A DNA stretch of 64,000 bases. It comes from Hericium rajendrae (taxonomy: Eukaryota > Basidiomycota > Agaricomycetes > Russulales > Hericiaceae). Below the pieces are notes generated by a model that did not search any database, was not told the origin of the DNA, and saw nothing but the letters and a program-made list of their open reading frames with translations. A program made the position numbers and the translations under genes. Of the stretch, positions 22,862 to 58,204 are shown in pieces. Positions within the stretch are counted from its first letter, which is position 1. Each line of letters starts with the position of its first letter. The DNA lies in the NCBI GenBank assembly GCA_033439255.1, contig CM065879.1, positions 4,036,501 to 4,100,500 of the forward strand, read 5' to 3'.

Positions 22862-23324
22862 TGAAGAAACACGACTTAGAGAGACGTTAGTCTATACTCA
22901 GTCTGTGATGTGAAAGACTATATTGCAGTATCTTAGAGAGACGTTAGTCTATACTACAAGTAGAGTCAGTAAAGATGAAACTCATAAGTAATGCAAGATA
23001 TGCTCACCTCAGTCTGTGATGTGAAAGACTGAGGTATCTGAGCGAACGAGGGAGCCCTTATATAGTACTTAGGGCTCTGCATATCTACCAATCAGAAATT
23101 GTACAGTAATCGTACAGCATAGCATAATGGATTGCTCATCACATGGGAACAGCATCAGTCAGCTCACTAAGGTATCAGTAAGCATATGTCAGAGCGTATT
23201 ACTAACCTGTACAGTAAGGCTATGTAAATGTTCCATGTGATTCTGCAATCACCAAAGTCCAGATCGTTCCAGATCTTTCCATAATTGTTGTCATCGAGAC
23301 TAGCGTCATCAACCAATTTCAACA
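22862..23324 (-). repeat. Copia LTR, left copy (3' LTR of the element)
   Basis: 463 bases starting TGAAGAAACACG and ending TTTCAACA (TG...CA). Nearly identical to the right copy. Confidence 0.93.
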
Positions 23325-28213: not shown

Positions 28214-28676
28214 TGAAGAAACACGACTTAGAGAGACGTTAGTCTATACTCAGTCTGTGATGTGAAAGACTATATTGCAGTACCTTAGAGAGACGTTAGT
28301 CTATACTACAAGTAGAGTCAGTAAAGATGAAACTCATAAGTAATGCAAGATATGCTCACCTCAGTCTGTGATGTGAAAGACTGAGGTATCTGAGCGAACG
28401 AGGGAGCCCTTATATAGTACTTAGGGCTCTGCATATCTACCAATCAGAAATTGTACAGTAATCGTACAGCATAGCATAATGGATTGCTCATCGCATGGGA
28501 ACAGCATCAGTCAGCTCACTAAGGTATCAGTAAGCATATGTCAGAGCGTATTACTAACCTGTACAGTAAGGCTATGTAAATGTTCCATGTGATTCTGCAA
28601 TCACCAAAGTCCAGATCGTTCCAGATCTTTCCATAATTGTTGTCATCGAGACTAGCGTCATCAACCGATTTCAACA
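28214..28676 (-). repeat. Copia LTR, right copy (5' LTR of the element)
   Basis: 463 bases with the same termini as the left copy and about three substitutions between them. Confidence 0.93.
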
Positions 28677-38639: not shown

Positions 38640-38724
38640 TTTGGGATGTACTGTAGCAGATTCAGAGGATGGGTTGAAGGATCATGGAAAGCCCTCTCTC
38701 GAGATGTGAAGGACTACCTTGAAG
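38640..38724 (+). pseudogene. Left part of a host reading frame split by element A
   Basis: The frame ends WVEGSWKALSRDVKDYLE exactly at the target duplication. The matching right part begins at 58196. Its family is not recognised. The 5' end is unresolved and may involve small introns. Confidence 0.55.
38716..38724. repeat. Target-site duplication ACCTTGAAG (left) of element A
   Basis: A 9-base direct repeat matching 58196-58204, immediately outside the CAGGCTCC termini of the inverted repeats. Confidence 0.92.
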
Positions 38725-39042
38725 CAGGCTCCTACCCACCGTCATGGGGAGGGCAGCGGGCGGTCTCCTAATAGCGGGGGACCAGAACATATGCGAAAAC
38801 ATACGAATTGAGGAAATAACATACATGACTCAGCACTAATTACGATTGATCCGAGAAACTACCGAAACTCTTCAACCCGCTGCCCTCCCCAGGACGGCTG
38901 GCACAAAACATTGGTAAACAAACGCCACAGCGGCCGTCCGGAGGCGCATGCCACCAAATGTGGTAATGCTCGAAGAAAACATCCGAAAAAATCAGCAGTG
39001 TGACAAGACGCGTCGCGTCGTCGAGTGAACGCGTCGCGCGTC
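38725..39042 (+). repeat. Left terminal inverted repeat of element A
   Basis: Inverted match to 57905-58195. The inner 150-odd bases (from about 38890) are identical in both copies. The outer part has substitutions and small indels. It contains a 22-base inverted pair (38739-38760 and 38877-38898). Confidence 0.92.
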
Positions 39043-39068
39043 ACGCTCTGTCCTTGTGCCCGTTCGAT

Positions 39069-41829
39069 ATGCCTCTGAGCAGGGTGCAGATAGACACAGC
39101 ACTTAATTTCCTCCACCAGAATTCCATACTGCTATCCGAACTCATACGAACACTACTGGCCGAGTGTCGCTACTCCGACAGTGCTGTCGTTGCAGATCTC
39201 GCTTCCCAATGGCAAGACCTCCTCTCGGCTTCACTCCTGCATTCCAAACTCTCCGGCACCACCATGCAATGGACTCTCAACACGGCATGTGCACGTTATC
39301 AGTCATCGCTCTCGGCCCTTGTGCACAAGGACAATGGCTGGCATTTCAGTGCTCTTCGCGCGCGAGCTGATCAGCTTCGTGAGTTTCGAATGGAAGCCAT
39401 GGCCAGAGATATGGAGAGCTTGTCTCCGGATCTCTGGCATCTGCTCGATTTTATGCTGGTACCTGGAGTAGGGATGGAGTTATGTGGAGAAGAGGAAGAA
39501 GAGTTAGATGGGTGCAACTCGGAGAATGAGTGCTGGGCAGCATTTGAGGAGGCACACGACGCGGCGGCGGCAAAGACACGCTCCCGCCAACAGGCGCGTG
39601 TCGATGAAAAAATGAAAATTATTCGTAACGTAGGAACTCTTCTGTGTGAAACCCGACTACGCTAGGTTCTGATCCATGGCAATTTCAGAAAAAAGTTGTC
39701 GTCCTCAGCATACTTATGCAAAGTGTGAACCAACAGTGTAACATGCTGCAAGCAGCTTTTGGCGTGTTCTTACATTCATGCAATACTCCCGAGAAAGTTG
39801 TCAAATCTGTCGCCCGAATGGGTATCTCGATTTCACTCTCTTCAATTCATAATTCTATCAAGTCGCTCTCTAACGAAAGCCGCAATGCCCTTCGCAAGCT
39901 CGGACAAAGTCTCCTGGTAGCATATGTATATGATAACTTCGACATTGACCAGAAGCCTTCCGTACCGACTGCTGAGAAGTCCACCGATACCCTACTGCAC
40001 CTCACATCAGGGGACCTTATGCGTCTTCGCCACGTAACAACAAGTGATCTCAATTGTGCAGATCAGCTATGGGAATCATCGAGATTCAACCGCCACTCAA
40101 AGACTCGACATGAGGTGAAAACGATCTATGACATTCAAGGGATACATCTAGAATCGGGACTGGATTCTGCAGGCCTAACACGCCGCGGACGGTTTAATGC
40201 ATGGAAGTTCCGGGAGGACCTCTTTCGATACGGGCCTGCATACTTCCGTCAGTTCACACTCATGCATCGGGAACCTGAGAGTGTTGACAAGATACCTTTG
40301 ACAAAACTGGACCACATGCCCGCGCGCGCCATGGACATCAATGAGTCGACCGTATCTGGAAATATCGACGCTATATCCGCCTTACTAATGCAAGGTGGTG
40401 TTGGTGGGGATCTGGACTGGAACATGGATGATAGTGACAAGGATGACTACGCGGAGGACTGCGACGCACTTCGCGACATTGGAAACCACGTCATATTGAT
40501 CCACGGTGACTTGAGCACCTACGAGCGAGTGCGCTCTGCAATGGATCGCCGATCCCTGGAGGCAACACCATATCAGCGTCTTCAGTTTGTGGTCTTCGTC
40601 ATGGGCTTGTTCCACTTGAAGATGGCCTGTGCGGATGCAATTTGGAGGGTCTTCATACATCCAAAGGAGGGACGCGTGGACAAGAACTCACTATTCGCTT
40701 TTGCGGGAGTCATGCGTCCTCACGAGACCGGCCAGATAGCCTCAAAGCCCGAGTTTCGCCAGATGCACGAAATCATAATGCATACTGGAATAGCCTTTCG
40801 TCTGGATGCATGGCGCGCAGAAGTCCAGAAGCGGTTCCCAGGCTGCAAGAACTTGGAGGACTTTGCTGCGCGAAAACCATCAATAGAAGAAATCGAAGAG
40901 ATTTCGGCAGCACTTGCCAAAGAACACGTCGTTGGCGACGGCCTGGACATTTTTGGAATGCGACAAGCACCATTAGTAGAACGTGACCAACAATATGAGA
41001 ATGGCCTGCTGCTTCATCAGTATCTGTTGCTTTACGAGGAGCTCACTTACTCGATGAATATGGGTGATATCGGTCGGCTCGAGACATTGTTTCCGCCATG
41101 GATTTGTCTGTTTAAGACGACAGGCAAGCATAAGTATGCAGCCTCCATGATGGAGTTCATCACTAACCTTTGGTTTGTGTACCCTGAGGGTCTGCGGTGT
41201 GTATCGTATAGCATTTCCACGCGCCCAAGCATCTGACCTTATTCCGATCGCGTGCGCGCAGACGAGCAATACGATACAACATCTTGGTGAATCCAACAGG
41301 AAAACCCGGGAAATTTCGAGGAACAGATTGGGTCGTTGAACTCCTCAATCTATTTATCAAAGTCCGTCAGTCAAATTTAAACAGACAATGATGTCGGAGC
41401 TCACATTTTATCCAGGTTACATATGGTGGATCAGGCTCAAATAGGACAAAGGAGCGTATACTTACCGAGTCCCCAAATGTTGGCGTATATCGCGACACGC
41501 ATACAAACTTCGAAGATAATCTTTCCCTACCAGGTCTCACCACTAGACAGGCCGATCCGGACTTGGAAAAGACATTCGAGAAGCTAATGGTATACATGGA
41601 AGAGAAAAAACCGAATGAAATGCATCCTGGCCGGAAAAGCGCACATGTCGTCCAGAACATGATAAGCAAAGGTCAAAGCATACTGGAAGAACAGATGCTA
41701 AAAGAAGGAGCAGGAGCAGTCGGAGGTCTAGGCGTGGAGGTCAACAGCAATGATGACGAGGTCGACTACTTTGCGGCCCTAGATGATTTTGAAGATTCAG
41801 TTATTACCGAATTTGACCTCCAAATTTAA
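39069..41829 (+). CDS. DUF6589-domain protein, candidate transposase of element A
   Basis: A protein of roughly 850 residues of the basidiomycete DUF6589 family. The start at 39069 (MPLSRVQIDTALNFLHQNSI) follows the left TIR by 26 bases. Conserved blocks are FLHSCNTPEKVVKSVARMGI, LVAYVYDNFDIDQKPSVPTA, NHVILIHGDLSTYERVRSAM, RLQFVVFVMGLFHLKMACAD, HETGQIASKPEFRQMHEIIM, LLYEELTYSMNMGDIGRLET and GKHKYAASMMEFITNLWFVY. After introns come NILVNPTGKPGKFRGTDWVV, YRDTHTNFEDNLSLPG and the acidic end DDFEDSVITEFDLQI. The spaced acidic residues in YDNFD, HGDLS and YEEL would suit an RNase H-like DDE centre; this is inference. An intron lies near 39665-39690, another after 41195 and another near 41370-41410. 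The gene converges on the helicase with 21 bases between stops. No obvious lesion is seen. Confidence 0.8.
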
Positions 41830-41850
41830 GAGACGTACTACCATGGATCA

Positions 41851-44800
41851 TTAATGCTGTTGTGGAGGTCGCAATTTGGTATAGAAGCGCGCGGTAGGCA
41901 CTGGTGTCATGGCGAGATGCTCCGATACTGTCGAGAGGCTACCCACACGTGGTAACATAAAGCCCGTCACATGCGCCGCAGGGTCCTGAGATGAAGGAAA
42001 GTCGTTCGGAGGGGAAATGCCCCGCCCAGCAGCATGATGAGAAAGTGCTGATCCTGGCGTGACAGGAATTGTCGATCCTGGCATGGCAGGCAGTTGCGTC
42101 CTGAAGCCCTGCTGGGCATGCCGCGTCGAAAGGGGCATCGCTGGAAGTGTGGTTGGCGTCGCCATGGATGGCATTGCTGCCGGTGTAAAAGGTGCATCTC
42201 GCAATGTTCGCGCGGGCAAGTCAACGACTTCAGACCGCGATGGTTCGCTTGCTGGTGGAGATGATATGGCAGCGGACTGAGTAGGAGGTGAAGGGGTGCG
42301 AGGTAGTGTGTGGTGTCGCAGCGGTGATGGGACTGATGCAACACCGGGGCGAGCAACACCAGGGTGAGGTGGCTGATTTTGATCCACTGGTCGCGCCGCT
42401 CGCCCTTGCCGTTTTCTCGTCGAATTCGGGGTCTTTTTGGGCGAATAAAGCGGACAAAGCTGGTTAGAAGCTGGAAGGAAAATCAGCGCGATGATTATTG
42501 AGAATTATGGGCTCTCAAACTCACATATGTGCCCAGTCGCGCCGCATTTGCCACACGTCCGTTTCTGCTTTGATTTCTGCACCGGGCGGTGAGCATCCTT
42601 GGATCCCTCGTCATGGACGTCTGTTGCGCCGTTCCGTACACGTTCGCCGCCATTCTCTGCGCCTTCGGCACTGCCGCGTGTTTGCGAAGATACTGTCGCC
42701 AGAGCGGGACGACTCTCGATCGAGTCCGTCGCACCCCGCGCAGCCGTCGTTCCAGATACATCATCGGTATCCGTCCCAACACTATGTTTTTGAATCATCT
42801 CGACGATTTGCGCACCGTATTTTCTGACAGCGACCCATTTGACCTCGTGTCGTAGGTGCTCTGTCGTTTCGATGCGGCCCGCATGCGCGCACGCGACAAT
42901 CCGCTCGAGCACCTCGTCGGACATGATTGCTGCGGGCCCGAGATTATTTGCCATGGCCGCACCGTAACGATCGAGCATCTCTTGCTTGCGGAATTCGTGT
43001 AAATCCCGTTGGAGATCGCCATCGCGCCGGTCCATCTTGAAGTCACGTTTGAATCGGCGTGCGCCCTTAGGCGGAGGAACGGGGGCTCGCTTCGGAGGCG
43101 CGATGGGAGCGGGGATGACGATGTCGGCGAATGCAGTAGGTGTGCAGAGTTCGCAGCAAATCTGCGGGATCGATGGGGAAGGGAGAGCGCAGCGTGTACA
43201 ACCAGTCGGTGAGCAGTCCTCATGGGAAGAACCTTATTATGTACGAGCATGTCACTGACCATTCATCATTCCATCAGAAATAGAAGACGATGTACATACC
43301 CAACTTGTCATTACCAAAATAGACCATCAACGGTGCGCGGAAACATTTCCATGGTCGACTCGCTGCGTTGACCATGTCGTCGAGGGCGGGCTCCAGCTCG
43401 TCTGAGTCTGTCGTATTCAAGGCCTTTCCCGACGGCTTTTGGCTACGCTGGTTATACAGATAACGACGCTCCGCACACCGCGCGATTCCCGATGCACGCG
43501 TCGCGTTCGGCTCTGGCACTTGCTCTGGCAGGATCGTGCTTCCATTACTGTCAGCCTCGTCGATAGCGTGCGAGGCGTGCAGGCGTAAGGGTAGACCTTT
43601 AGCTAAGTGTACCGGCAGCTGCTGCCCGACACAATCAATGTTCCTCAGTAATGGCCAGTCATCACTTACCGTCCGTTTAGCTAAGTGCACCTCTATGTGC
43701 ATTTAGCTAAATGCACCAGTTATCTATTGATCAAATCATTTAGATCAAATTTCACATACTCGAATTGGCGACGACAAGGCAAAGAGGCAGACGGACCAAA
43801 AACATTCAATTGCATACGAAAACAAAGCTATTATGTATACATCAATTTTGCACGATAGAGCTAACGATGCCGCCTTATGATAAGAGATAAGACAACAGAC
43901 AGCGGGGCCATTGTGCGTAGCCTGACGAGACGGGATGACCAGAGGAGGGACAACGACTATTGGGGGGAGGAGAGATGATATAGGATACGCAGGGGAAGCA
44001 ACTGAGCTGTACACAGATCTAATTGAAGCCTATGCAAAGTTCAGTCAGTATTTATAAAGCGAGAAGATGCCACACACCTTAAAATGCCTCATAATCCTCA
44101 CCGCCTGTGCCCAGCTCAAGCTCGATCGTCGTAACCGGTGCTCCCCCATCATCATCGCCCTCCGTTACATATGCACTCCCATCGAGCACTGGCCGAGCCT
44201 TGACTCTAACTGCAGCCCAGCGGTTGCTAAACTGCGTCGCAAGGTCACGGTACATGCCAGCTTGCTCTGCCGCATAGGCATGAACACCCTCCTTCAACGC
44301 CTGGTCTTGATCCTTGTTGCGGTCGATAGAGGCGTCACGTCGAGCAGATCGATCTTCCCACAAGGAGGTCTCCGTCGCAAAGGTCTCGAGGACGCGTCGC
44401 ATCTCTTCTTCCACGTGCTCGACTTCCTCGTGCCATCGAGCAGCACGGACCTTGGCCTTGGCCCACTCAACGCGAAGTGCTGGAAAAGGCTTTCAGCAAG
44501 AACAAAGTAAAAAGAGCAGCACGACCCACCATCCTGAAGAGCAGGGTCATTCTCATCTGCTGCTGTAGGGACCGCATGCCAGATCCAGGAGATGGTGGAC
44601 TTCTTGCCTTGACTCTGGCTTGGCCTGCTGGCCTTGCCTCGCCCTTGCCTAGCAGGCATCTGGCTGCTGCGAGCACGTCCGCGTCCCTGCCTAGCCACAT
44701 CCTGCAAGGGAGCAGTGCCTTCGCCATCACCCTCTTCTTCCGGCAGCTCCACGATGTCGAGCAGGTCTTCGCGTAGCGTGCGCACGTCCGCGTCCTTGAG

Positions 44801-47800
44801 TTCGCGAAGGTAACCTGTCCAGCTGCCACCTCCCGTCAAACGCATCAACGCGCGGTGCGCATGCTGGTACCGAAGCTTCAGCAGCTTCACTCGTTCATCA
44901 ATCCGGGTCTGTGTCTGTCGGGCCCGTGTGTGTGGACCCTGGCCCACTACGTTGTAGACCTTAAAGTTGTTGAAGTAAGACCGCATTTGAAGGTGACGCC
45001 GCAGGTCATCGAGGGCGTCCTCCGCCTCTGCAGTGCGAAGTCGGGCCTCCACATCTGCCAGCGCAACAGAACAGGCAGCCAGCCGAGCTTCTGCATTGTC
45101 GAGATCCGACGGCATTCGCAGTTCGACTTCTTCAGCTGGCACTTTGTCAAGCGCCGGTCCGTCAGCGTCGTTGCTGTCGTCGCTGCGACTATCCTGTAGG
45201 CCAGGCATGTGTATTGCCTGCTTTCGCCGGAAGCGACGAACTCGGCGCATAAAGGCTCGCCGGCGATCCTCGAAGTCAGAGATCTGCAGGGTGGTAGGGG
45301 ACTTCGCCAACTTTAGATCGTGTCGAAGCGAACGCCTGGGGGTTCGAATTGAGCTACTGGCCTGGAAGACGTCACCAAAGGACACATACTGTGCTTGTTC
45401 CAGCTCGAGGCCGAGCAGCAGGAACGAGGATGCGCTGGCGTCGCTCTCCTCGTCCATGGCCTGACCCAACGCAGCGTGCTCCTCCTCCTTCAATTCTTGC
45501 CGTATCTCTTCCATGCTCTTCTCTAACACAAATGAATCAGCAATTTCCTCCACGAAGGAAGAGGCAGACTTACTTGCTCGAGGAGCTGTAAATGGGCTAG
45601 GATTATTCTCCTTATCCTCATCCCAAGCAGCGAACATAGCATCCCACTGCTCCACCTGCTCCGGGCGCTTTCTGCGGAGACCTTCATCCATCTCCCTATA
45701 GGCACGGTGGAAAGTGATCGCATTCGGAATGGCTTGCAGCATCTTTCGAAGAAGGGAGGAACCTATGCATAAGAGTCAGTTAAGCCGCTATAGCATTCAA
45801 TCGGAAGCAACACACCCATGCCAACTACGCGTCTCCAGTTTGCGAAGCCACAGAAATCGTCAAGAGTGTCCCTCCGCGAGCCGGGCCCCATCTCCTTCGT
45901 GCTGGCTGCCGCACCGTTTAGCCAAGCCCAATTTCGCTCAGGGCCCTCCAGCTCCGATCGCCCCATCCCAACTGTTCTGCGAGAGGAAAATACGCTGTGA
46001 CAAAACTGCTTGTGTGCTTGAAGGTGAAACTCGGGCACCAGGAAGATGACTTCGGCGTTGCTGAGTGACTCCTGCATAGCGTCAGGGAAATCGGCGACGC
46101 GTAACCAAAACTTCTTCTTCCATTGACACGCAAGGTCGTATGATGAGACAATAGTCTTGACGATCGCTTCCAGCAGGGTCGAGAGGAAGATATAATCCAT
46201 GTTCAGATATCTGGAATGAAATCAGGCACTAGAAGCAGCACAGGCACCCCAACGACGTACCTTTCCCCTTTCTGCAGATCACCGAGCCCGTTTGCCCTCC
46301 AGAACTGGTGGCGGCCGCACGTCACAGCGCCGACTCCAGTGGATGCCAGACCCTTTGTTTGCTTTAGGTTGGCTGTAGCCAAGGCAGCAAAGGACACGCA
46401 GGTACTGATCTGCCATGAACATAGTTAGTTAGATAAGAACGAGAACATCGTGGAAGAGGGCGCACATCCTCCTCGCTGGTATGCTCCACAACGTATTGGC
46501 TGTAACTTTTGCACTCTACGAAGTATGCAAAGCCGCTACCCAGCGGCGGGTCCAGCTCCTCACTGGTGCGTAACCGACTCTTCAATCGGAAATTCGCATC
46601 CATAGCTAGAACCAACCAATAGAGAAACCTAGAGGGTATCAGCCAAAAACCACAAGAAACATCGACGGCACACGTACGCTTTTTCAGGAGGGGCATCCAT
46701 CCAATTCGATGGGAGGTTGACCCCCGGCCGAGGGCAAGCAGGACATTTGACAGCAAGCTCCCCTTGCTTTGTGCCTGCGATGCCAGTAGGATCCAAACCA
46801 CGGCCTCCGCGCTTGAGCAGCTTGGTAAATCGCCACTCCCGGATCATCAACATGAACATAGGCAATCGATCCTGGCAAAGGACAGAAAGCGCACGTTACA
46901 AGGCTGACTACAAGAACGAATCTATAACAGAGACTCACTGGGAGTTTCTGAAGGCCGGCGCCGTTGGTTTGCAACTCCAGGGCCTTGTAACAGTCGTAGG
47001 CGGACAGCTTGCCTTGAAGGTTCAGCGCGTGAAAATGTCGTAGGAGCGCCATTGTGGCGCAGGTCTGCGGTTGAAGCGGCGTAGCGGGCCACCACGAGGC
47101 GCGAAGGAGTTGAGTCCGATGGGGCAGGCTGCCTGAACAGCCACAAAAATCCATAGCAACGAGGTGTATGCCGTTCGTATGGAGAACGACAAACTCGTCC
47201 CGGCCTCGGACGCGCGCGTGGCAGAGCCCAACCGCATCGTGGCCCACCTGCACGCGGAGGCCGAGGCTACGTAGAGAGGTTGTTTCAAACCGAAGGCCGG
47301 TCCATCGCTGAAGAGAGGAACAGATCAGGAGCGGGTAAGGCGTGGCTGTAAGCGGCTCACCTCAACAGCATGGAGCGGCATTGGACGGTGCGCTGCCTTC
47401 AAGCAGCCCACACAAACTAGCCCTCCGCAATGACAATCCTTGCACCGAAACTCCGCCTTCTCAGCCCCGCAAGAACGGCAAGCACCATCCGGCCCTCCTG
47501 TATCCGCTGCATCGCCCGGCAGCCCTCGCCCATCAAGCCGCATGATCTCGTCCAGGTACTCGGACGCGTGCTTGCGCCACGTAAATAAAGGACGATCCTA
47601 TAAGACAGTAGGGTAAGCCGTCCTGCCCAACCATACAAGCAAAGAGTGAACTCACCGAGTTGCTATATCGCTTCGCTGGCAGGACCTGTACCCCCTCCAG
47701 CCCGACTTCCTGGACGGCCACAGCAGGCTCCACCTCTTGAAAAAAACCTTCTTCGACCCCCTCGTCGTCCTCCGGCGCGGCGGTCTCACCCTGCGTGGCG

Positions 47801-50800
47801 GTTGCAAGAAGCGTCGGCGCGACCGTGGATCTGTGAGCGTGGACGCGGCGGTTTTTGCTGATGGTGAAGACCTCTGACACAACTTCAGGTGCGCCATGGT
47901 CATATAGCTCGTAGGTACGTTTTTTTGCCTTCGTCATTGGAGAAAAGGCAGAGGAGTGGAAGAAGGGGACAAGCTAGAGGGTAGGAGTGAGTAAAGAGCA
48001 GAGACGACAGCTTAGCCGCGCCAGCAGAGCCTCGGCACGCGCATGACCGGCGAAATCCCGATCAAAAAAGCTTGGCGCGTGCTTCTTCCTTCTAAACCCT
48101 AGTCCTGGTCCAAAAAATTAGTTTAGTCATTAGAAGGCTATTATTAATACATTAACGCCCTCCAGCTACTATTATGAAGTTGAGGCAGAGGAGTGGCACA
48201 GCAACCATTAAGACCCGCCTTCAAACGAGCTGAGACGATCTGCAACTAAGCCTGACAACTTGGAAAACAACGATAGCGCCCATCTCCACCGCTCTTGAGG
48301 GGTACCGTCCATAGCCACGCGCTCCGAGCGAGACATCGTTGTGGAACCCCGGAAGCCGTGCAGGGTGTAGCTTAAGAGCTCGCCTGGACAGTATTGCGTA
48401 AAGGAAAAGCGGACCTCTCCCTCAGCAATGGGGGTGTTGCCGTGCCGGACAGAGGCAGAAGGAATAGCGACCGCGGAGCCAGAGGGCACGTTGATGATGA
48501 GGCCAAACTCCCACAGAATGAGCTGCCCCCCCTTGGTGTGGTCGAAACGTCCGAACGGCATAATGATACACCACCCGTGAGGCACGTTTGTGCAGTCCAG
48601 GTGGTCGTTGCAGACGGTAGCAGGGCCAAGGTTAAAGGTGCAGGTAGGGAAGATGCTATTGGGGAAGGGACGCTTGAGGCTCTGGAAGCGGTTCAAGAGA
48701 ACATCGAGCGTAGTCTCGTAGTAACTATAGACTTTCGGAGCATACAGAGCAAAGATGCCTGTCAGGCCACTGTAAGCAGGCCTCGTAGTGGATGAAAGGA
48801 AAGACTCACTACTGCCGAAACCAGCCACGCGCTGCAAAGCCGGGTTGGCGGTGAGCCGGTTGATGATCCTTTGCATAGGACCGCTATGACGAAGGTTTAC
48901 CGGCGCCTGCGTAGCAAACCTTGTCAACAGCCTGAGGGAAGATTGAGAAAAACAGCACGCACCTGTGGCCCGCCTCCGTAGTAAACGCCGGTGTTCAGCG
49001 CAACAAAGCGCCCCCTCCTCCCGTCAATGAGCCCCCTGGTCGAATACTTGCGACTCTCCATCTCTCCCTCCTCGAGGGCCGCCGTTGCTTCTTTCTGGAC
49101 CAGATCCCACCCGACATCTTGAGGGCGACCAGGGAGGAACCCGACAATGCGGCCCACGGGATCGCAAAGCGCATGCGGGGTACTAAATTGACAACAGGTC
49201 AATCCACCGCAGTAGGGTCGGGCTGGAAAAGGCCTCACCTGCCGTCCCAAGCCATGACTCTAAAGCCAATAGATAACAGCTCCTGCACCGTCCAAGGCTT
49301 CATGCGTAGCGGCTGGGCCCGAACGCCAACGAAAGCCCAGTTCGCCCTCCGCAGCCGTGCTGCGTCGAAGCAGACGGGGAGGACCGCAGCCTTGCCGACG
49401 CGCCTCGACAGCGACGAACGAATTTTCGCCGGCTTGCTGGCCTCGCTGGCGCCCTCGTGCTCCCTCCCCTTCTTCCGTAGCTTTCTCTTCGACTTTGCTT
49501 TGGCTCGATGGGTCCTCAAAGCGGAGGAAATGGTCTTCGAGGCTTGGGGTTTGTTCGATGCCGACGGCGGGCTTGGGCGTGCTGCGGGTCGAGGCCATTC
49601 GCTGCCGACCGCTGGAACCGTCGACGCCCGAGGGCTGAGAGCAGAGGGGGATGCGGCGATAGCGGCAGGGGAGGGTGATCGTGAAGGAGAGGAGTCCACG
49701 TCTGTGAGGGGGGATGGGCTACGGGAGGAGTCGAACTGCCGCATCAGCTGGTCGAGGGGCGTGGAGAATACGCGCGCTGTCATCTGGGACGCCATGCTTG
49801 GAGACGAACCCAGGCCGACCCCACCCTGGTCCCCATGCCCTCTGTCTTCCTCCTCAATAGCTTGAAGAAGCCCTGGGCCGATGTCGAAGACCTGATCAAC
49901 CAAACGAAAAGGGACGGCGCGTAGTTGCTGGTAGAAAGGAGTGTAATGTCGGCCAGAACGGGTGCGGCCGACAGCACCGGAAGGGCCCGCGGTTTCCATG
50001 GAAGCCAAGAGTGGGCTGGAACGGATCGATTTTTGAGGAGCGAACGACGCGACGCGACTAACAACGAAGCTCACCCTCGCACGCGAAAAACGCGTCGACA
50101 AAACTCCAATGGCTTCTGCAGCACACGCTCCTGAGTGAAAACGCGTGCAAAGCGCGTCAGATAGTGTGAACGAACGGTGGAGAGGAAGGGGAACCCACGC
50201 CATTGCGCGCGTCCAGCTGCTGGGCCTGGGCGAGGCCCAACTGGAAGGATACGCGCAAGGACGGGGCAGGCAACCAGAGAAGTACTCACCACAACCAGGA
50301 CAGTCGGTACGGGACTACAAACAGAGGGTAGGGAGTGCGACAGAGTCACAGAGGAGAGGAGCGCTGGCAGTGGGAGGAAGGACGCGGCTTCCAAATCGGG
50401 ACGAGGTAAAGGCTTTGCAATTCAAGCTCCGACAGCGCGGAGTGTCGATAGCCGTGGCTTCACAGCCAGAACTCAGCATACAGGGAAATTGGAGCTAATT
50501 GAATAGCCGAAGTTTAGACAGAATAACAAAACAAGGGTAGGCAGAGCAAAGACAGCACGACATGAACAAAGCAACTACGTAGTATACAGACAGATCGATA
50601 TAGTTCACGATAGAAAAATGCTACCGGAGGCCAGATCTACACTGCTACTTCCGAACACAAACCCTTCCCCGGCTCATAGCAGTTGAAATGGCCTTGCGGC
50701 CCACCCTCACGTTCGCATACTTCGAAAAGTTGTTCAACGACACACGGTTGACCTGCTTCTCCGCCTCATCCAACGAAGCATATAGGCCCGGCACTTTGCC

Positions 50801-53800
50801 CTGGAAAACGACGTAGACTGGGCCGGAGTGACCGTCGTGCAAATCATGGTACGGCTCCGAAGGCACACCAGCTGATTCACCATGGTCAGCGTGGACGTCG
50901 CTCGACATACCCTTAGACGGGCGAGAGTACGTTGCGAGGAGCGGGTGACAATCGGGTGAGTTATCATCGCAGAAGTGAAGGAAACCCCCTTTCGCGGCCG
51001 TGCGATAGGCTTCCCAAGCGTGGTCAGGCGTGTCGAAGCCGGTAAACATTTTGTGGGCGCAACCCTGTACTTGCTCCTCCGCGCGGCGCCTTGCCGTTGC
51101 CATTAGCAGGCAATGAACCCTAGTCTAAACAACGCACCTCTTATAGTATACACCGGGGCAGTACCCATGCAACACCACCCAGGCAGTCAGCCACTCGTCC
51201 CCTTCATCCTCTTCCGAACTTGCAGCTGTAGCTTCAGCATTGGCAGCGCTACGGTGCGTATGCGCCTTCGCCGAGGCAGGCGCGGTGCGACGTTTATGGC
51301 CCCTGCCCCTGAATGCGTAGACAAACCCCTGCGGGACTCCTTGGCTGACGGGACCAGCTTCCCACCTATCACACAAAAATGACTACTGAACATTCCAACG
51401 TGTACGTTACAGCTGCTCACCAATGTCTGAAAATGCCTGTGCGTCGCCCAGACACAACATGGTAACTATGCATATTCATCGCCTGGTCGCCTACGTCTTG
51501 ATCAGCGATGCGAGGCGTCGACCTGAGATAGCGATGCATTTTTACTTACTATCACCGTCCACGGAACTCACTTCGGACCCAACACCACCATCGTTCGGCG
51601 ACGCGGCCGCCGGTGTTTCGAAAGAGGGTAGCGACCATCGGTGACGAAGAGGGATGTCTAATACGACGTCAAAGGACGTCGTACGCACAAGGATCGGAAA
51701 TGATAGCTACACGCGGCACCCGACGGCGAAAGCTCAACCTCCCCCATGATCCTGACCAAATCCGGGTCCGTTCCATACGACGACGCGGGCGACATGGGGA
51801 CGGCGGACAGAGCGGTCGCATAGCCACTTCGGCTACTGAGCGACGCGCTATCGCTTACGGCCGACGACGACGACATCCCGCGGGGAGAAGAAGAGGGAGA
51901 GAATATGGAGGAAAGGGAGATGGTCTTGCCTGACTCTATCGAGGGGGTTTATATAGGCCTAGGAAGTGTCAGCCACATTTCGTGAAGCGAGAGAAATCGA
52001 ACGTGAGCTGAGGTTGAAGGCGAGAGGAGGACTCCTTCGCAGTTGCAATCATCGTACGCGAGGATGGAAGTGGAACGCGGTTCAGTTTGAAATATCACGT
52101 GCGCATCGTTGCGGTTCAGCCGACTGTCGGAGTAAGCCGGAGGGACGGGAGGATTTTCTGCTAGAACCGAACCATCGCTCTATCCGGTACTCCCTTTCCG
52201 CTGGAATTTTCGACGTCCCGTTTCTGATTGACGCCGCTGACGATTCCAATGCCCAAGGCGTCCAAAAAGGGGAAGACTCGTGCAGCTCGACGTGCCAGTC
52301 AAGGCAAGCCTCGCGGCCGTGTCGGTTACATCGTGGACGAGAAGGTCAAGTTTTGCGAGCAACTCCGATCTACGTGGCAGGGTGCTGTCAAGGCTGGCAC
52401 AGTGGGGGCCTTTTACGACAAAACCACGAACGACATCATCCTCAAGTTTGATTCTCTTCCGGAGCCGACGAACTCGACGCCTCATCATCCGTCTGGAGAA
52501 GATGATGACGAATCCGGCGAGGAGGACCACGAGGAGGGTCCGATCGCCGGACCATCAACAGCAGCGTCGACCATTTCTGCTCGGGAGGAGGAGCGTGAGG
52601 CGAAGCGAAAGAGCAAGCATCGTGTCACGGTTCGGAACGTACGCCTCTTTCGCGCGTTTTCTTTCTGCGTTGTGGCTGATGGTTTCGCAGGCGTTGTCAA
52701 CATGGTTTCGAAACAATGGCAATGGCACCAGCACCAGCACAGGGAAAGTGGCCGGGGCGAAGGATCTCACCAAGGAGTTCGACGCTATTACCGAGATGGC
52801 GCCAACGAAGCCTCGTCGTCACCACGAGGATCAGTTCTTCTCCACGAAACACTACGAATCGATGGTCAAGGCGCAATTCGACTCCCATTTCCAGGTCGTC
52901 TCAGCCGTCTGGAAAGCCTCGCAATCAAATTCTAACCCAGGAGACACCACTTCATTGCCGACGCCCACCCAGATCTCTCTTCTTGCCGATGTGATCTTCG
53001 AAAACGACGCGCTCTTCACTCAGGTTTATCAAGACTGGTTAGATGATTATCGCGTTCGAGGCGTTCGGTTGTCTGATGTCAAGATACGCGCGGCGTACAC
53101 GCGTGCAGTGTACCGCGCTCAACCGGCCGAGTTCCAGCGCGGGCTGAGGGAGGAAAGAGATGAAGCCTACGACAAGGAGATGGAGGCATATCATGCGCAG
53201 TTGGAGGCGGCCGGGGCGGAGAAAACCCCTGACTATTACGCAAAGTACGCCCCTCTCTCCTTCCGGAATCGTCGCGTTTTAATGCGTTATGTTGTTCTGT
53301 AGCATGCTCTCGAAGGCGCCCTACTACCTCCACCCTCTTGCTCAGCACCTCGAGAAGCTGTTGGGCATGTGCGTCTCAATCCTCGTGACGGGTCCTGACG
53401 GAGCGAATAAGGGCGCTATGGTAATGAAGAGGTACGTCTGCACCCCGCTTTTGTCACAAGACGTTGAGCTTACGTCGCGTCTTAGCGTTCACGTTGGTAC
53501 CACAAGCGACGCGAGGAGTTTAACCTGGCGAGAGGCTGATCCAGAAGGGTTCAAGGCCATGGAGGCGTCGTTCTGTAGATTCGGAAGGCGATCCTTTAGT
53601 ATGCATTATTCCTCTGTCCCTCTACGATTTCCATTGCTGACCATATTCATATACAGCCAAGGAGCAACGTGCTGCACGCATTATTCCGACCGCGTCGGAT
53701 GTGCACGCCGCAGCAGGCAACGACTCTGAGCAGCAGGCTTCACCCGCTTCGCCGTCAAACTACAACGCGCCGTTGTTCGACGGTGAGAACCCTACGCCGG

Positions 53801-56800
53801 AGCCTTCCGTGAGGGATCCATGGTCGTTGCCGCCTTCTTCACCCACTCTCGAGCAGCGCCCGGAGCAGTCTGGCCCTCAACCTTCCCCGTCGAGTCCCCT
53901 TCGCCCGCTTCCTTCTACGAGTTCGGTCCACAGGCCGGGCGATACGAACGCATCGGGCAGCAGACGCCCGACAGAGCCTGACGGATCAATTCGCAGACCG
54001 CCTCTCTTCCTTCCGGGAACAAGCTCTCCATCCGCACCATCGGCAAGCCGTTCTACCCGTAAAGCGCCTCAGAGATTCGTGGCAACGCCCATTACTCCCG
54101 GAGGCGCATTGTTCTCAGGGTCCCAGCACATCCCACTGCCTCCTCGCACCGTCTCGCAGCCCATTACCCGCCCTAAACCATCCAATCTGGCCACATCGAG
54201 ACGCATCCATTCGACGCCTAACGCCATCGGCCGCCGTGCATCCAGCCGCGATGTCCAGATCGACCCCGCACTCACCGACGTGTACCGCACGTCCGCCCCC
54301 GGTTATCGTCCGCACGAAGAATCGCCGCGCCTCCGCACGCCACCGCCGTCGCCGCACATGTCGGACCAAACGCCGCTGGTTGCTCGGCAGTTTTCCCCCT
54401 TGGGCTCGCTCAGTGGTGACCCGCGATCCCGCCGGCTTCCGTACGTTAGGAAGCCATTCTACTGGGATGGAAATGAGATGTCTAGGGAGCTTGATGAATT
54501 GGCCTGGAATCTGTTGGAGGATAAGCGGCAGAGGGAATGGGATGGTGTAGACGATGGCATGGATGATCCCCCACGCGCCTCAGCAACACGCATCACTAAG
54601 CCCCGGGCAGATCGCGAGCCCGACGCCTTGACGTCAGACAACCCGTTTGCGGGCAGGTACTCTGCCGCTAAGACCCCTGCTCAGACCCGGCATTTGCAAG
54701 CATTGCCGCCGCCCACATCCCCACGTAGCCCTCTTTTCACGCAACGCTTTCACGACGTATCGTCCTCCCCGGTGCCCGCGCCTTCGTCACGACGGAAGCT
54801 CCCGTCCGCACAACCGCCTCCATCCGATTCGTGGCCTCCGAGGCAGCCCCCGCCGAACGCCCACCAAATGATGATTGAAGCAGGGCGTCGTACTCGGCCG
54901 GCACATCCTGCATCACAGCCTCCGACTACCAGCATCTCCAGTATGCCCCAGACTTCAGGCTTACACGCTGACTTCCGAGCGTGGCCTGAGAAAATGCAAG
55001 AAGTCTATGGCCTCTTGACGCGTGGCAAGGACTGGGGTGCAGAGTGGGGTGCATGTGTGAATGAGTGGGTCGACGTGCAGCGTATGGATGAGTTTCAGGT
55101 GAGTGTGCTGTGGTTTATGGTCGTTCTGCCTTACTGACTCTCTATGAAGGTTGCTGCAAAGTCTACCAACAAAGTTGGCGAGTTCTCATCTAAGGCGCGG
55201 CCGAGCCTCATTGGCATCTGGATCTCCCACAAGAGGCTTCCCAAAGACCGAGAAATCACGGATGTCGTCGACTATTCAGCGAAATGGTGGACGTGGTGGG
55301 GGGTATGCCAGCCCGAGGAGCGCGGTACAGATGAGAATGGCAGGCCAGGCCCTCTGTCAGAGGGTCTGGACTGGACGTGTATGGATGTCACTACGAGCTG
55401 TGGGCTCGTTCTCATTATGGTGAGCCTCTCGTTCTGGGGCGCTCAGGTCTTCAAGCCCGGAGGTGTGACTGCGCGTCAAAGAAGGGACTGGAGCGACGCA
55501 GTGTCCCAAGTATCCACGGCGCTTGCTGCGGTCAGGCGTTGGAAGGCTTCTGAAGCAGGAGAGTCTGGAAAGCGAGTGAGGTACGCGTCCTTCTTTTTTT
55601 TTCCCCCTTCTATACCTGTTAAACACAATGTTCTTAGCGCTACGCAACCTTCCACGTCGTCGAGGCCCGCAAAGCGTCGAAAGACTTAGCGGGCTATCTT
55701 TCCCCCTACGCCACCTTCTATTATGCTCTGTTTCACGGCGTTATAGGCCTCTACGCTGCAAGTTATGCTTCAATCTCGCAGCACTCCTATGTAATTTTTT
55801 TTTACGGTGGTGCATGTTGCCTTGCAGCAGCATGGGCTTCGCATTGACGTACCATTTCTTTCTCTGCACCTCTTTGATCCAGTTTTTGCTCACATTGTTA
55901 TCATACTCATATTCACCGCAGCATATTTTTATCGCATCATCCATACTGTAGCATTTCTGTCTCTCGCACGACATCCCTGTTTTATATCCCTGCTCTCGAA
56001 TATACTGACTCCTACGCTTTAGATCAACATGCCAAGAATATCCTCCCTTCCTCGTACGACTCAACTCGCATGGGTTAATGTCACCCTCACTATCAGGGTG
56101 TTTCGATTTATGACCATCACGATACCTTACTCCCCTCTGGCGATATTGCCTTTTTGCCCTGTTAGCCCTCCATGCAGCCTCCCTTCATGCATCGTCTTAC
56201 TCAGAGATCTCGTATTGCTAATTTCAGCTCTCTGCTGCACGCTTTTCGGTGATCTATGATCAAGTGTGAAGAAGGCAATATGATGCGAAAGGTATGTTTT
56301 TCACATGATAGTGATGATTGCAGCTTGTGCGATCAGGGAGATTAGATGTGTTGCGGAATTCAGATAAAGTGAGTGGTGCATTTAGCTAAATGTGCAAAGC
56401 TGACGTTTAGCTAAATCTTAGGGTAAGTGGCCACTGGCCATTACTGGGAAACATTGATTGTGTCGGGCAGCAGGTACTGTACAGTTAGTTAAATGACTAC
56501 CTTTACTGGTGGAGGCGTGGACAGAGAGCGCTCGACGATTGGCGCTTGAGGTGCCAACGACGGCCACCTTCTGAGCCCTTTCAAGTTCCTCCTCTGCCTT
56601 GCGCTTCGCCGCCGCCGCCGCTTTCTCTGCGCGCTTCGTCTTTGCCTCGGCTTTCCTTTGCTTCTCCTCATCAAAAAATCTAGGCTCCAGGAGAAAAATG
56701 GCCTTTGCGGTCAAGCTCTGATCTCGCGCGCCCCGCCCGAAGCGCTGCCAGAGTGTAGACATCGAGCACGACGCGCGCCATTGAACGACGATTTTGATGT

Positions 56801-57881
56801 CCGGTAAGTCCACTCCCTGTGACAACTTAAGCATCAGCTGTCAGGATGAGAATACGATGAACGTTACTCACCATGCCAAAGGAGTCCGTACAGCAAAGAC
56901 CCCAGGTATCACCCGACATCAGGTTCTTTACCTCGTCCTCGCGATAGTCCCCAGTCATGTCCGCATTAAACCATCGGACTTTCTCCCGGTATTCCTCTGG
57001 CAAACGTGACCGCAGGTAATCCACTGCCGCCATAGAATCTGGTATGTTGTCGAAGAACACTACAAACTTTGGTGGAGGTGGCTGACCTGGCGTCCAGTTC
57101 TCCGGGATCAAAAAGGAAAGGTCTTCATAGCTTGACAGTGAGTGCCGTATCTTGCGCACCGTGATATGTATGTTTGGACGGTCATTTGAGCGCTGTATGA
57201 GCTCGCACTGATCGCGTCGGATTTGTAGGATTGTCATCACGTCGTCGAGCACGGGTGGAGGGAGAGTTGCCGACGCGAGGAAAAAAGGTATGTTACGTGG
57301 AATTAAATAGCGAAGGCGGCTTGCCTCTTTGTACTGTCCGCGAAATTCTGACCACGTTTTCACGCAATGTGCTTCATCCCAGATAAAGCTAAGCAGGCGC
57401 GCAACAAATGGCTTGTTCTTCCAGAGAGCCTCAAATTGACCACCATTCATCAAGAGTATCTCCGGGTTCACAACGATCGCCTGATAGCGTCCGTCGCCGA
57501 TGTCCTGCAAGAGATTGAGATATACTAATTCTTTGGCACTGACATTAGACACACCTTGAAATTTTGAGTTGTTGCTGTGTCCCTGGTAATGGAGATAGCC
57601 TCGATGCCGACACGGGCGAGCTGGTCCACATTTTGCTTCCCTAAAATATTCAAGGGGGTAACCACAATCTGGATATGCTTCTTGCGGAAGAGCAATGGCA
57701 TCCAGAATGTTAATGTCTTGCCAGAACCTGTCCCCGAGATGCAAATGACATCCTTGTCATTCTTGAGGACAGCTTGAGCTGCTTTCAATTGCCAGAGACA
57801 CGGACGGCGCCCGAAAACCCTCTGCGTCTCGTCGCGGATCTGCGAGAGCGTCGGGATGTCTGTATGCGAGCTGGTTGCCAT
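41851..57881 (-). CDS. RecQ-like superfamily 2 helicase of element A, split by element B
   Basis: A DNA helicase whose gene is interrupted by element B (43602-56498). The start at 57881 gives MATSSHTDIPTLSQIRDETQ. Then motif I ISGTGSGKTLTFWMPLL, Ia IQIVVTPLNILGKQNV, motif II FIWDEAHC, III FFLASATLPPP, then KFVVFFDNIPDSMAAVDYL, WFNADMTGDYREDEVKNL, LCCTDSFGM, GVDLPDIKIVVQWRA and motif VI STLWQRFGRGARD. A basic coiled coil precedes the break at HASTSKG. Beyond element B the same frame resumes GLPLRLHASHAIDEAD and continues WKCFRAPLMVYFGNDKLG, CSPTGCTRCALPSPSIPQIC, a CCHC knuckle CGKCGATGHIC and a Pro-rich tail (stop 41851). Exons are 57881-56499 and 43601-41851 with internal introns. The insertion separates the ATPase from the Cys-rich tail, so normal function is doubtful. 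Confidence 0.85.
43595..43601. repeat. Target-site duplication ACCTTTA (left) of element B
   Basis: Seven bases repeated at 56499-56505. Removing element B with one copy restores the helicase frame exactly, supporting this as the duplication. Confidence 0.75.
43602..43717 (+). repeat. Left inverted repeat of element B with TTTAGCTAA motifs
   Basis: Inverted match to 56375-56498. Copies of TTTAGCTAARTGNACC occur near 43598, 43676 and 43701. The core TTTAGCTAAA is close to palindromic and may be bound by the transposase. Confidence 0.8.
43718..44078. other. Non-coding spacer of element B
   Basis: AT-leaning sequence between the left TIR and the KDZ stop. Nothing recognised. Confidence 0.4.
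44079..47937 (-). CDS. KDZ (Kyakuja-Dileera-Zisupton) transposase with CxC2 cluster
   Basis: A DDE-type transposase of the KDZ class. The start at 47937 gives MTKAKKRTYELYDHGAPEVV. After an intron, RKHASEYLDEIMRLDG leads to the CxC2 zinc cluster (CRSCG, FRCKDC, GLVCVGCLKAAHRPMPLH), then WTGLRFETTSLRSLGL. DFCGCSG...RTQLLRASWWPAT is typical. KCPACPRPGVNLP and FLYWLVLAMDANFRLKSR (first catalytic Asp) follow. GVGAVTCGRHQFWRANGLGD, YIFLSTL, IVSSYDLACQWKKKFW (second Asp), FVPEFHLQAH-like and ELEGPERNWAWLNGAA (Glu) complete the fold. The last 480 codons are a coiled, acidic region (AFMRRVRRFRRKQAIHMPGL) ending GTGGEDYEAF. About nine introns. All catalytic positions are present, so it looks intact. 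Confidence 0.9.
48208..49999 (-). CDS. TET/JBP-family 2-oxoglutarate/Fe(II) dioxygenase
   Basis: Predicted to oxidise 5-methylcytosine in DNA (or a related base), as shown for mushroom TET proteins. The start at 49999 (METAGPSGAVGRTRSGRHYT) is chosen over an upstream ATG because METAG begins the non-basic part. A disordered Ser/Pro- and Lys/Arg-rich region follows (KAKSKRKLRKKGREHEG). The catalytic part starts PWTVQELLSIGFRVMAWDGR, then ALCDPVGRIVGFLPGRPQDV and FVALNTGVYYGGGPQ. After short introns it continues QRIINRLTANPALQRVAGFG and YAPKVYSYYETTLDVLL. The iron ligands are in CNDHLDCTN (H-x-D, 48595-48603) and SVRHGNTPI (distal His near 48442), with RFSFTQY supplying the 2-oxoglutarate Arg. 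GWCIIMPFGRFDHTKGGQLI and LWEFGLIINVPSGSAV match the double-stranded beta-helix. Neighbours are the KDZ gene (270 bases away, same strand) and the viroplasmin gene. Confidence 0.85.
50645..51876 (-). CDS. Tandem viroplasmin / RNase H1 N-terminal-domain protein
   Basis: Two copies of the Cauli_VI (viroplasmin, RNase H1-N) fold, which in RNase H1 binds RNA-DNA hybrids or dsRNA. The likely first exon starts at 51876 (MSSSSAVSDSASLSSRSGYA). A middle exon reads GFVYAFRGRGHKRRTAPASA and an acidic linker, then WVVLHGYCPGVYY. An intron joins it to VQGCAHKMFTGFDTPDHAWE and AYRTAAKGG, completing copy one. Copy two is GPVYVVFQGKVPGLYASLDE and AEKQVNRVSLNNFSKYANVR. No RNase H catalytic domain follows (stop 50645). 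Such stand-alone proteins recur near KDZ elements in mushrooms as far as I recall. They may shield element nucleic acid; this is inference. Confidence 0.7.
52249..55689 (+). CDS. Large protein of a KDZ-associated basidiomycete family, function unknown
   Basis: It starts at 52249 (MPKASKKGKTRAARRASQGK), a basic stretch, then VDEKVKFCEQLRSTWQGAVK and AGTVGAFYDKTTNDIILKFD. An intron after HRVTVRN joins TWFRNNGNGTSTS and later FFSTKHYESMVKAQFDSHFQ. Then comes a coiled segment (FQRGLREERDEAYDKEMEAY), KAPYYLHPLAQHLEKLLGMC, VSILVTGPDGANKGAMVMK and SVHVGTTSDARSLTWREADP. A 350-residue Ser/Pro-rich region follows. The C-terminal module WPEKMQEVYGLLTRGKDWGA, VVDYSAKWWTWWGVCQP and LDWTCMDVTTSCGLVLIM is tryptophan-rich. 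The basic end SSRPAKRRKT looks like a nuclear signal. The same three-part plan occurs in many unnamed mushroom proteins. I do not know a function. Five or six introns are inferred. Confidence 0.65.
55690..56374. other. Non-coding, T-rich spacer of element B
   Basis: Pyrimidine-rich sequence with a run of nine T at about 55796 and many ATTT words. No gene recognised. It may hold the 3' UTR of the + strand gene. Confidence 0.4.
56375..56498 (-). repeat. Right inverted repeat of element B
   Basis: Inverted counterpart of 43602-43717, about 80 per cent alike by eye, with TTTAGCTAA words near 56380 and 56409 and a diverged one at 56485. Confidence 0.8.
56499..56505. repeat. Target-site duplication ACCTTTA (right) of element B
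   Basis: Matches 43595-43601. Confidence 0.75.
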
Positions 57882-57904
57882 GGAATAGTGTGTCTCCCTG
57901 CTGA

Positions 57905-58195
57905 GACGCGCGACGCGTTCACTCGACGACGCGACGCGTCTTGTCACACTGCTGATTTTTTCGGATGTTTTCTTCGAGCATTACCACATTTGGTGGCATG
58001 CGCCTCCGGACGGCCGCTGTGGCGTTTGTTTACCAATGTTTTGTGCCAGCCGTCCTGGAGAGGGCAGCGGGATTGAAGTTTCGGTAATTTCTCGGATCAA
58101 TCGTGTAATTAGTGCTGAGTCATGTATTTTATTTCGTATGTTTTGCTATTCAGAGACCGCCCGCTGCCCTCTCCATGACGGTGGGTAGGAGCCTG
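57905..58195 (-). repeat. Right terminal inverted repeat of element A
   Basis: Inverted counterpart of 38725-39042. It ends GGAGCCTG at 58195 and contains the inverted pair 58050-58071 and 58160-58181. Confidence 0.92.
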
Positions 58196-58204
58196 ACCTT
58201 GAAG
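58196..58204. repeat. Target-site duplication ACCTTGAAG (right) of element A
   Basis: Matches 38716-38724. Confidence 0.92.

Follow-up and report, generated by a model that had tools for sequence, protein, structure and literature searches.

Which gene product moves an element that carries a RecQ-like helicase gene together with a gene of the DUF6589 family? DUF6589 (PF20231) is a Pfam family of unknown function, and the genome of the basidiomycete Hericium rajendrae alone contains 34 loci. The question is raised by element A, which occupies positions 38725-58195 (19,471 bp) of the window, the whole stretch of 64,000 nucleotides that was analysed. The initial annotation had read A as a two-gene helicase transposon with DUF6589 as its transposase. 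Our analysis leads to a similar view, in which A is likely an AcademH-type two-gene transposon, with DUF6589 as its DDE transposase and the helicase as a partner.

Anatomy of element A

Element A contains a DUF6589 gene and a RecQ-type helicase gene in convergent orientation. It is bounded by imperfect inverted repeats, identified by repeat comparison: 318 bp on the left (38725-39042, plus strand, with the 5' end CAGGCT) and 291 bp on the right (57905-58195, minus strand). An exact 9-base duplication, ACCTTGAAG, flanks the element at 38716-38724 and 58196-58204. Terminal inverted repeats and a target duplication of fixed length are features of DDE transposons, and this arrangement agrees with that described in the initial annotation. 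An empty site was sought elsewhere in the host genome, and the sole matches were A's own two flanks. Both genes start 23 or 26 bases inward of an inverted repeat, so each repeat probably doubles as a promoter, the left one for the DUF6589 gene and the right one for the helicase gene. The inner 167 bp of the repeats (38876-39042 and 57905-58071) are the same at 166 of 167 positions, and the outer parts contain gaps and mismatches.

The helicase gene starts at 57881, on the strand opposite to DUF6589. Its 5' part (56512-57881, minus strand) includes the helicase core, with the motifs GTGSGKT, DEAHC, SATLP and QRFGRGARD. This part matches the DEAD profile, and its best solved relatives are RECQ5, WRN and BLM (best E 4.5e-14). 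Downstream of the core motifs, the gene is interrupted by a second transposon, element B (43580-56511, 12.9 kb), which contains KDZ and CxC2 domains and is flanked by an 8-base duplication, GAGGCGTG, at 43572-43579 and 56512-56519. B was correctly recognized in the initial annotation as nested in A. The frames at 41854-43579 (minus strand), beyond B, carry a CxxC...GHxC motif and are probably the C-terminal, 3' part of the helicase gene. B belongs to the KDZ (Kyakuja-Dileera-Zisupton) elements, which are basidiomycete DNA transposons; the Zisupton duplication is given as 8 bases in the available part of one source (PMC12730594).

Co-occurrence of DUF6589 and helicase genes

The survey proposed in the initial annotation was carried out in the window's own genome (46.8 Mb). 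The DUF6589 search returned at least 68 exon matches, grouped into 34 loci, both counts being lower bounds. With the window helicase as query, 45 matches were retrieved and grouped into 29 loci. Twenty-one of these helicase loci have a DUF6589 gene at a distance of 6 kb or less, with 0.28 pairs expected by chance, and three more, including the window's own, lie at 15-20 kb. RecQ-core helicases have also been reported to be multiplied in fungal genomes as subtelomeric genes (PMC7473861, PMC4522978, in the parts available). Those genes are described there by their location near chromosome ends, whereas here 24 of 29 helicase loci have a DUF6589 gene no more than 20 kb away. The other five helicase loci (C1:642213, C1:5260203, C11:57903, C13:640830 and C15:283979) have no DUF6589 gene within that distance.

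Three more pairs, whose helicases lie at C2:1932670, C11:1913905 and C18:224744, emerged from the sequence next to unpaired DUF6589 genes and from two additional helicase searches. In total, a helicase partner accompanies 27 of the 34 DUF6589 loci (23 convergent, 4 divergent and none in tandem). Similarity to the window pair rises jointly for the two genes (rho 0.69, p 0.001, 19 of the 27 pairs, which are not independent of one another), as expected for genes that travel together. Two inverted DUF6589 copies, at C16:254462-258105 and C16:266076-269719, are 99.7% identical over 3,644 bp, and each has a divergent helicase.

No helicase was detected at the remaining seven DUF6589 loci. One of them appears, by eye, to lie amid retrotransposon-like frames, and for four the sequence examined was the match alone. 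The other two are 8.3-kb copies (C14:398667-406990 and C14:1377983-1386308) that are 99.6% identical, each with a DUF6589 gene. Neither YAGNCT ends (see below) nor a duplication was found at their borders, and inspection by eye revealed no helicase in the frames of the parts inspected.

Ends and target duplications

Flank comparison identified long inverted repeats and exact 9-base duplications at two further loci, C8:743104-749706 and C11:591846-597511. A short common end, YAGNCT, was revealed by three related copies whose similarity breaks off at one and the same position. The next scan, of 54 segments totalling 252,975 bases, sought pairs of YAGNCT ends at a spacing of 2-25 kb with an exact flanking duplication of 6-11 bases. 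Duplications of 9 bases were retrieved at 11 loci, of 8 bases at three and of 10 bases at one; none had 6, 7 or 11 bases. The duplicated sequences vary. All 15 matches bracket a DUF6589-helicase pair, the window's included, so that 15 of the 27 pairs have both ends and a duplication.

Among 1,536 motifs built in this form, YAGNCT ranked first with 15 loci, and the best unrelated motif recovered three; two motifs that overlap YAGNCT recovered 13 of its 15 loci. Outside known ends, 4.8 million pairs gave 209 matches of 8-10 bases, a rate at which about 0.08 matches would be expected by chance among the 1,817 YAGNCT pairs. In an earlier, smaller scan, ends on different contigs or far apart yielded few duplications (0, 1 and 9 in 99,387 for 9, 8 and 7 bases, respectively). 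The motif test is not a fully independent prediction, as YAGNCT was learned from these loci, although seven of the 15 (two from an earlier scan and five from the final one) took no part in its definition. Less weight attaches to the duplication at C2:4690946, which sits in a GGTCGA repeat.

For 12 of the 27 pairs, no ends with a duplication were found in the stretches scanned. Three of these (C9:1261844, C9:215879 and C8:1871318) have clear ends at which a duplication was sought and not found. At the other nine, YAGNCT ends were not found in the stretches scanned, some of which were partial. The gene pair recurs with common ends. Considering the 15 pairs with ends and a duplication, and the three or fewer loci recovered with unrelated motifs, DUF6589 and the helicase almost certainly constitute a two-gene transposon, as the initial annotation had suggested, and one that recurs in this genome. 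Two elements with 9-base duplications are larger, C9:958188-978819 (about 20 kb, with relatives of about 6.3 kb) and C2:4690946-4714511 (about 24 kb), and the additional DNA that they contain may be a nested insertion or cargo.

A relative of A without either gene was detected at C4:662012-662782. It is 771 bp long and has a 167-bp inverted repeat (98%) related to A's own (73-83% over parts); an exact 9-base duplication, GCTGAAGTA, flanks it. Its ends are CAGGTT, one base off YAGNCT. This looks like a non-autonomous element that would have been moved in trans. Non-autonomous Academ elements are reported from a basidiomycete genome in the available part of PMC8290104.

The DUF6589 protein

The PF20231 profile matched the ORF at 39650-41233 with an E-value of 6.7e-73 and 246 bits (cut-off 27). 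A computed gene model, whose splice sites derive from sequence only, has four exons on the plus strand, runs from an ATG at 39069 to a stop at 41829 and encodes 855 aa. Exons 1 (39069-39629) and 4 (41435-41829) come from the gene model. Exon 2 (39689-41196), placed by the PF20231 match, the alignment and the model, encodes D269 (39932-39934), D461 (40508-40510) and H496 (40613-40615). Exon 3 (41262-41365), placed by the exon alignment and the model, encodes E716 (41338-41340). For the third intron, an alternative at 41362-41415 scored one lower.

The alignment comprises 23 rows with 16-54% identity to the protein of the window. D461 and H496 never vary in it (23 of 23), and each of the 18 rows covering position 269 has the aspartate, D269. 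E716, in the downstream exon, is shared by all 32 rows compared there, which represent 29 distinct loci and were picked by similarity to that exon itself. A DDE centre requires three conserved acidic residues, and D269, D461 and E716 provide them. The initial annotation had anticipated such a centre but placed one of its residues in the motif YEEL, which is not conserved: among the 11 rows that reach it, E637 is glutamate in four and E638 in eight. The order of the residues, D...D...H...E, fits a DDE transposase. By exclusion, and from this invariant pattern, DUF6589 is very probably the DDE transposase of such elements; the proposal made for it in the initial annotation is retained, with the third acidic residue corrected.

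Profile searches yielded no sequence match between DUF6589 and known transposase families in Pfam or the PDB. The best E-value for any other Pfam family was 0.0086, such matches being confined to one or two members, and the PDB search retrieved one designed construct (E 0.49) and no solved transposase. Nor does DUF6589 match the KDZ piece of element B (hhalign probability 0.15), and it was rejected as a KDZ transposase. A single-sequence AlphaFold2 model, computed without an alignment, had a pLDDT of 33 and a pTM of 0.22, values too low for an RNase H fold, as expected of a DDE transposase, to be read from it. No relatives were detected in viral contigs (two scans) or prokaryote contigs (one scan) with scans seeded by short peptide patterns. 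The name DUF6589 was absent from the literature searched, and searches on PF20231 returned unrelated subjects only, one match being a chance character string. Within the papers searched, the function proposed here for DUF6589 appears to be new, although the kind of element is already known.

Relationship to known transposon superfamilies

The AcademH lineage of the Academ superfamily is reportedly the subject of a 2020 paper by Kojima (Mobile DNA 11:15). In the part of PMC10045372 available, AcademH is the helicase-bearing Academ lineage, with duplications of 9 or 10 bases, whereas AcademX, of the same superfamily, has a nuclease in place of the helicase and duplications of 3 or 4 bases. Other sources, likewise available in part, mention a RecQ helicase for Academ (PMC3627910) and describe AcademH as low-copy in Basidiomycota, Ascomycota and Mucoromycota (PMC10799480). 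The elements described here share a RecQ-type helicase gene of superfamily 2 and a basidiomycete host with AcademH as presented in these excerpts. Their duplications also agree: that of the window has 9 bases and 12 of the 15 fall within the published range. Three, of 8 bases, lie just outside it, and the 34 DUF6589 loci differ from the low copy number described. The traits given for AcademH in these papers link the elements to Academ, in line with the likeness that the initial annotation had noted. Judged by these published traits (helicase and duplication length), membership of AcademH is probable.

Alternatively, the elements could form a superfamily distinct from Academ, with DUF6589 as its transposase, in which the RecQ helicase and the staggered cut of about 9 bases were gained independently. 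No Pfam or PDB profile ties DUF6589 to another transposase, three duplications have 8 bases, and convergent and divergent layouts both occur, all of which would suit such an origin. Against this, RecQ helicase, 9-10 base duplications and a host among the Basidiomycota are combined here just as in the published excerpts on AcademH, and we consider a separate superfamily unlikely. On that equally unlikely view, the defining traits of the superfamily would be its YAGNCT ends, duplications of 8-10 bases and a RecQ partner gene in convergent or divergent orientation, and genes whose sole annotation is DUF6589 would be transposases that have gone unrecognised. It is far less likely still that the mover is another enzyme (the helicase product, or a transposase of the host or of another element) and DUF6589 an accessory. 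Such a reading could draw on the inferential basis of DUF6589 catalysis and the low pLDDT of its model, but the helicase resembles RecQ enzymes and not nucleases, DUF6589 has the invariant D, D, H, E series, and 15 loci carry it between the same ends and with the same duplication length.

Kolobok elements duplicate TTAA. Their KolobokH lineage, also of fungal DNA transposons, encodes a RecQ helicase and is known from fungi only, according to the available part of PMC9587614. These two traits speak for a KolobokH identity of the pair. In contrast, the duplications detected here have 8-10 bases of varied sequence instead of TTAA, and the two genes are encoded on opposite strands. KolobokH was rejected on duplication length and gene layout, and it is the least credible of the alternatives, with hardly any probability left to it.

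Proposed mechanism and implications

Under the preferred AcademH-type reading, DUF6589 would bind the YAGNCT ends and excise the element, with D269, D461 and E716 as the predicted metal-binding residues. It would then insert the element at a target cut with a 9-base stagger (8-10 bases in related elements). The RecQ-like helicase, as the conserved partner, probably acts by opening or remodelling DNA, either as the element transposes or in the repair that ensues, and the inverted repeats would probably serve as promoters besides being ends.

If DUF6589 is an AcademH-like transposase, its genes would become annotated transposons. The ends, the duplication length and the partner gene provide handles for finding further DUF6589 transposons, and the role of a RecQ helicase in transposition would become directly testable.

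Other sequences of note in the window

Within element B, the frame at 48211-49023 gave a weak, sub-threshold match to TET/JBP (E 0.069), and the frame at 50648-51124 contains a Cauli_VI (RNase H1 N-terminal) domain. To the left of element A, a 300-bp direct repeat (22862-23161 and 28214-28513, 99% identical) surrounds a minus-strand frame of 1307 aa. These repeats look like the LTRs of a young LTR retrotransposon.
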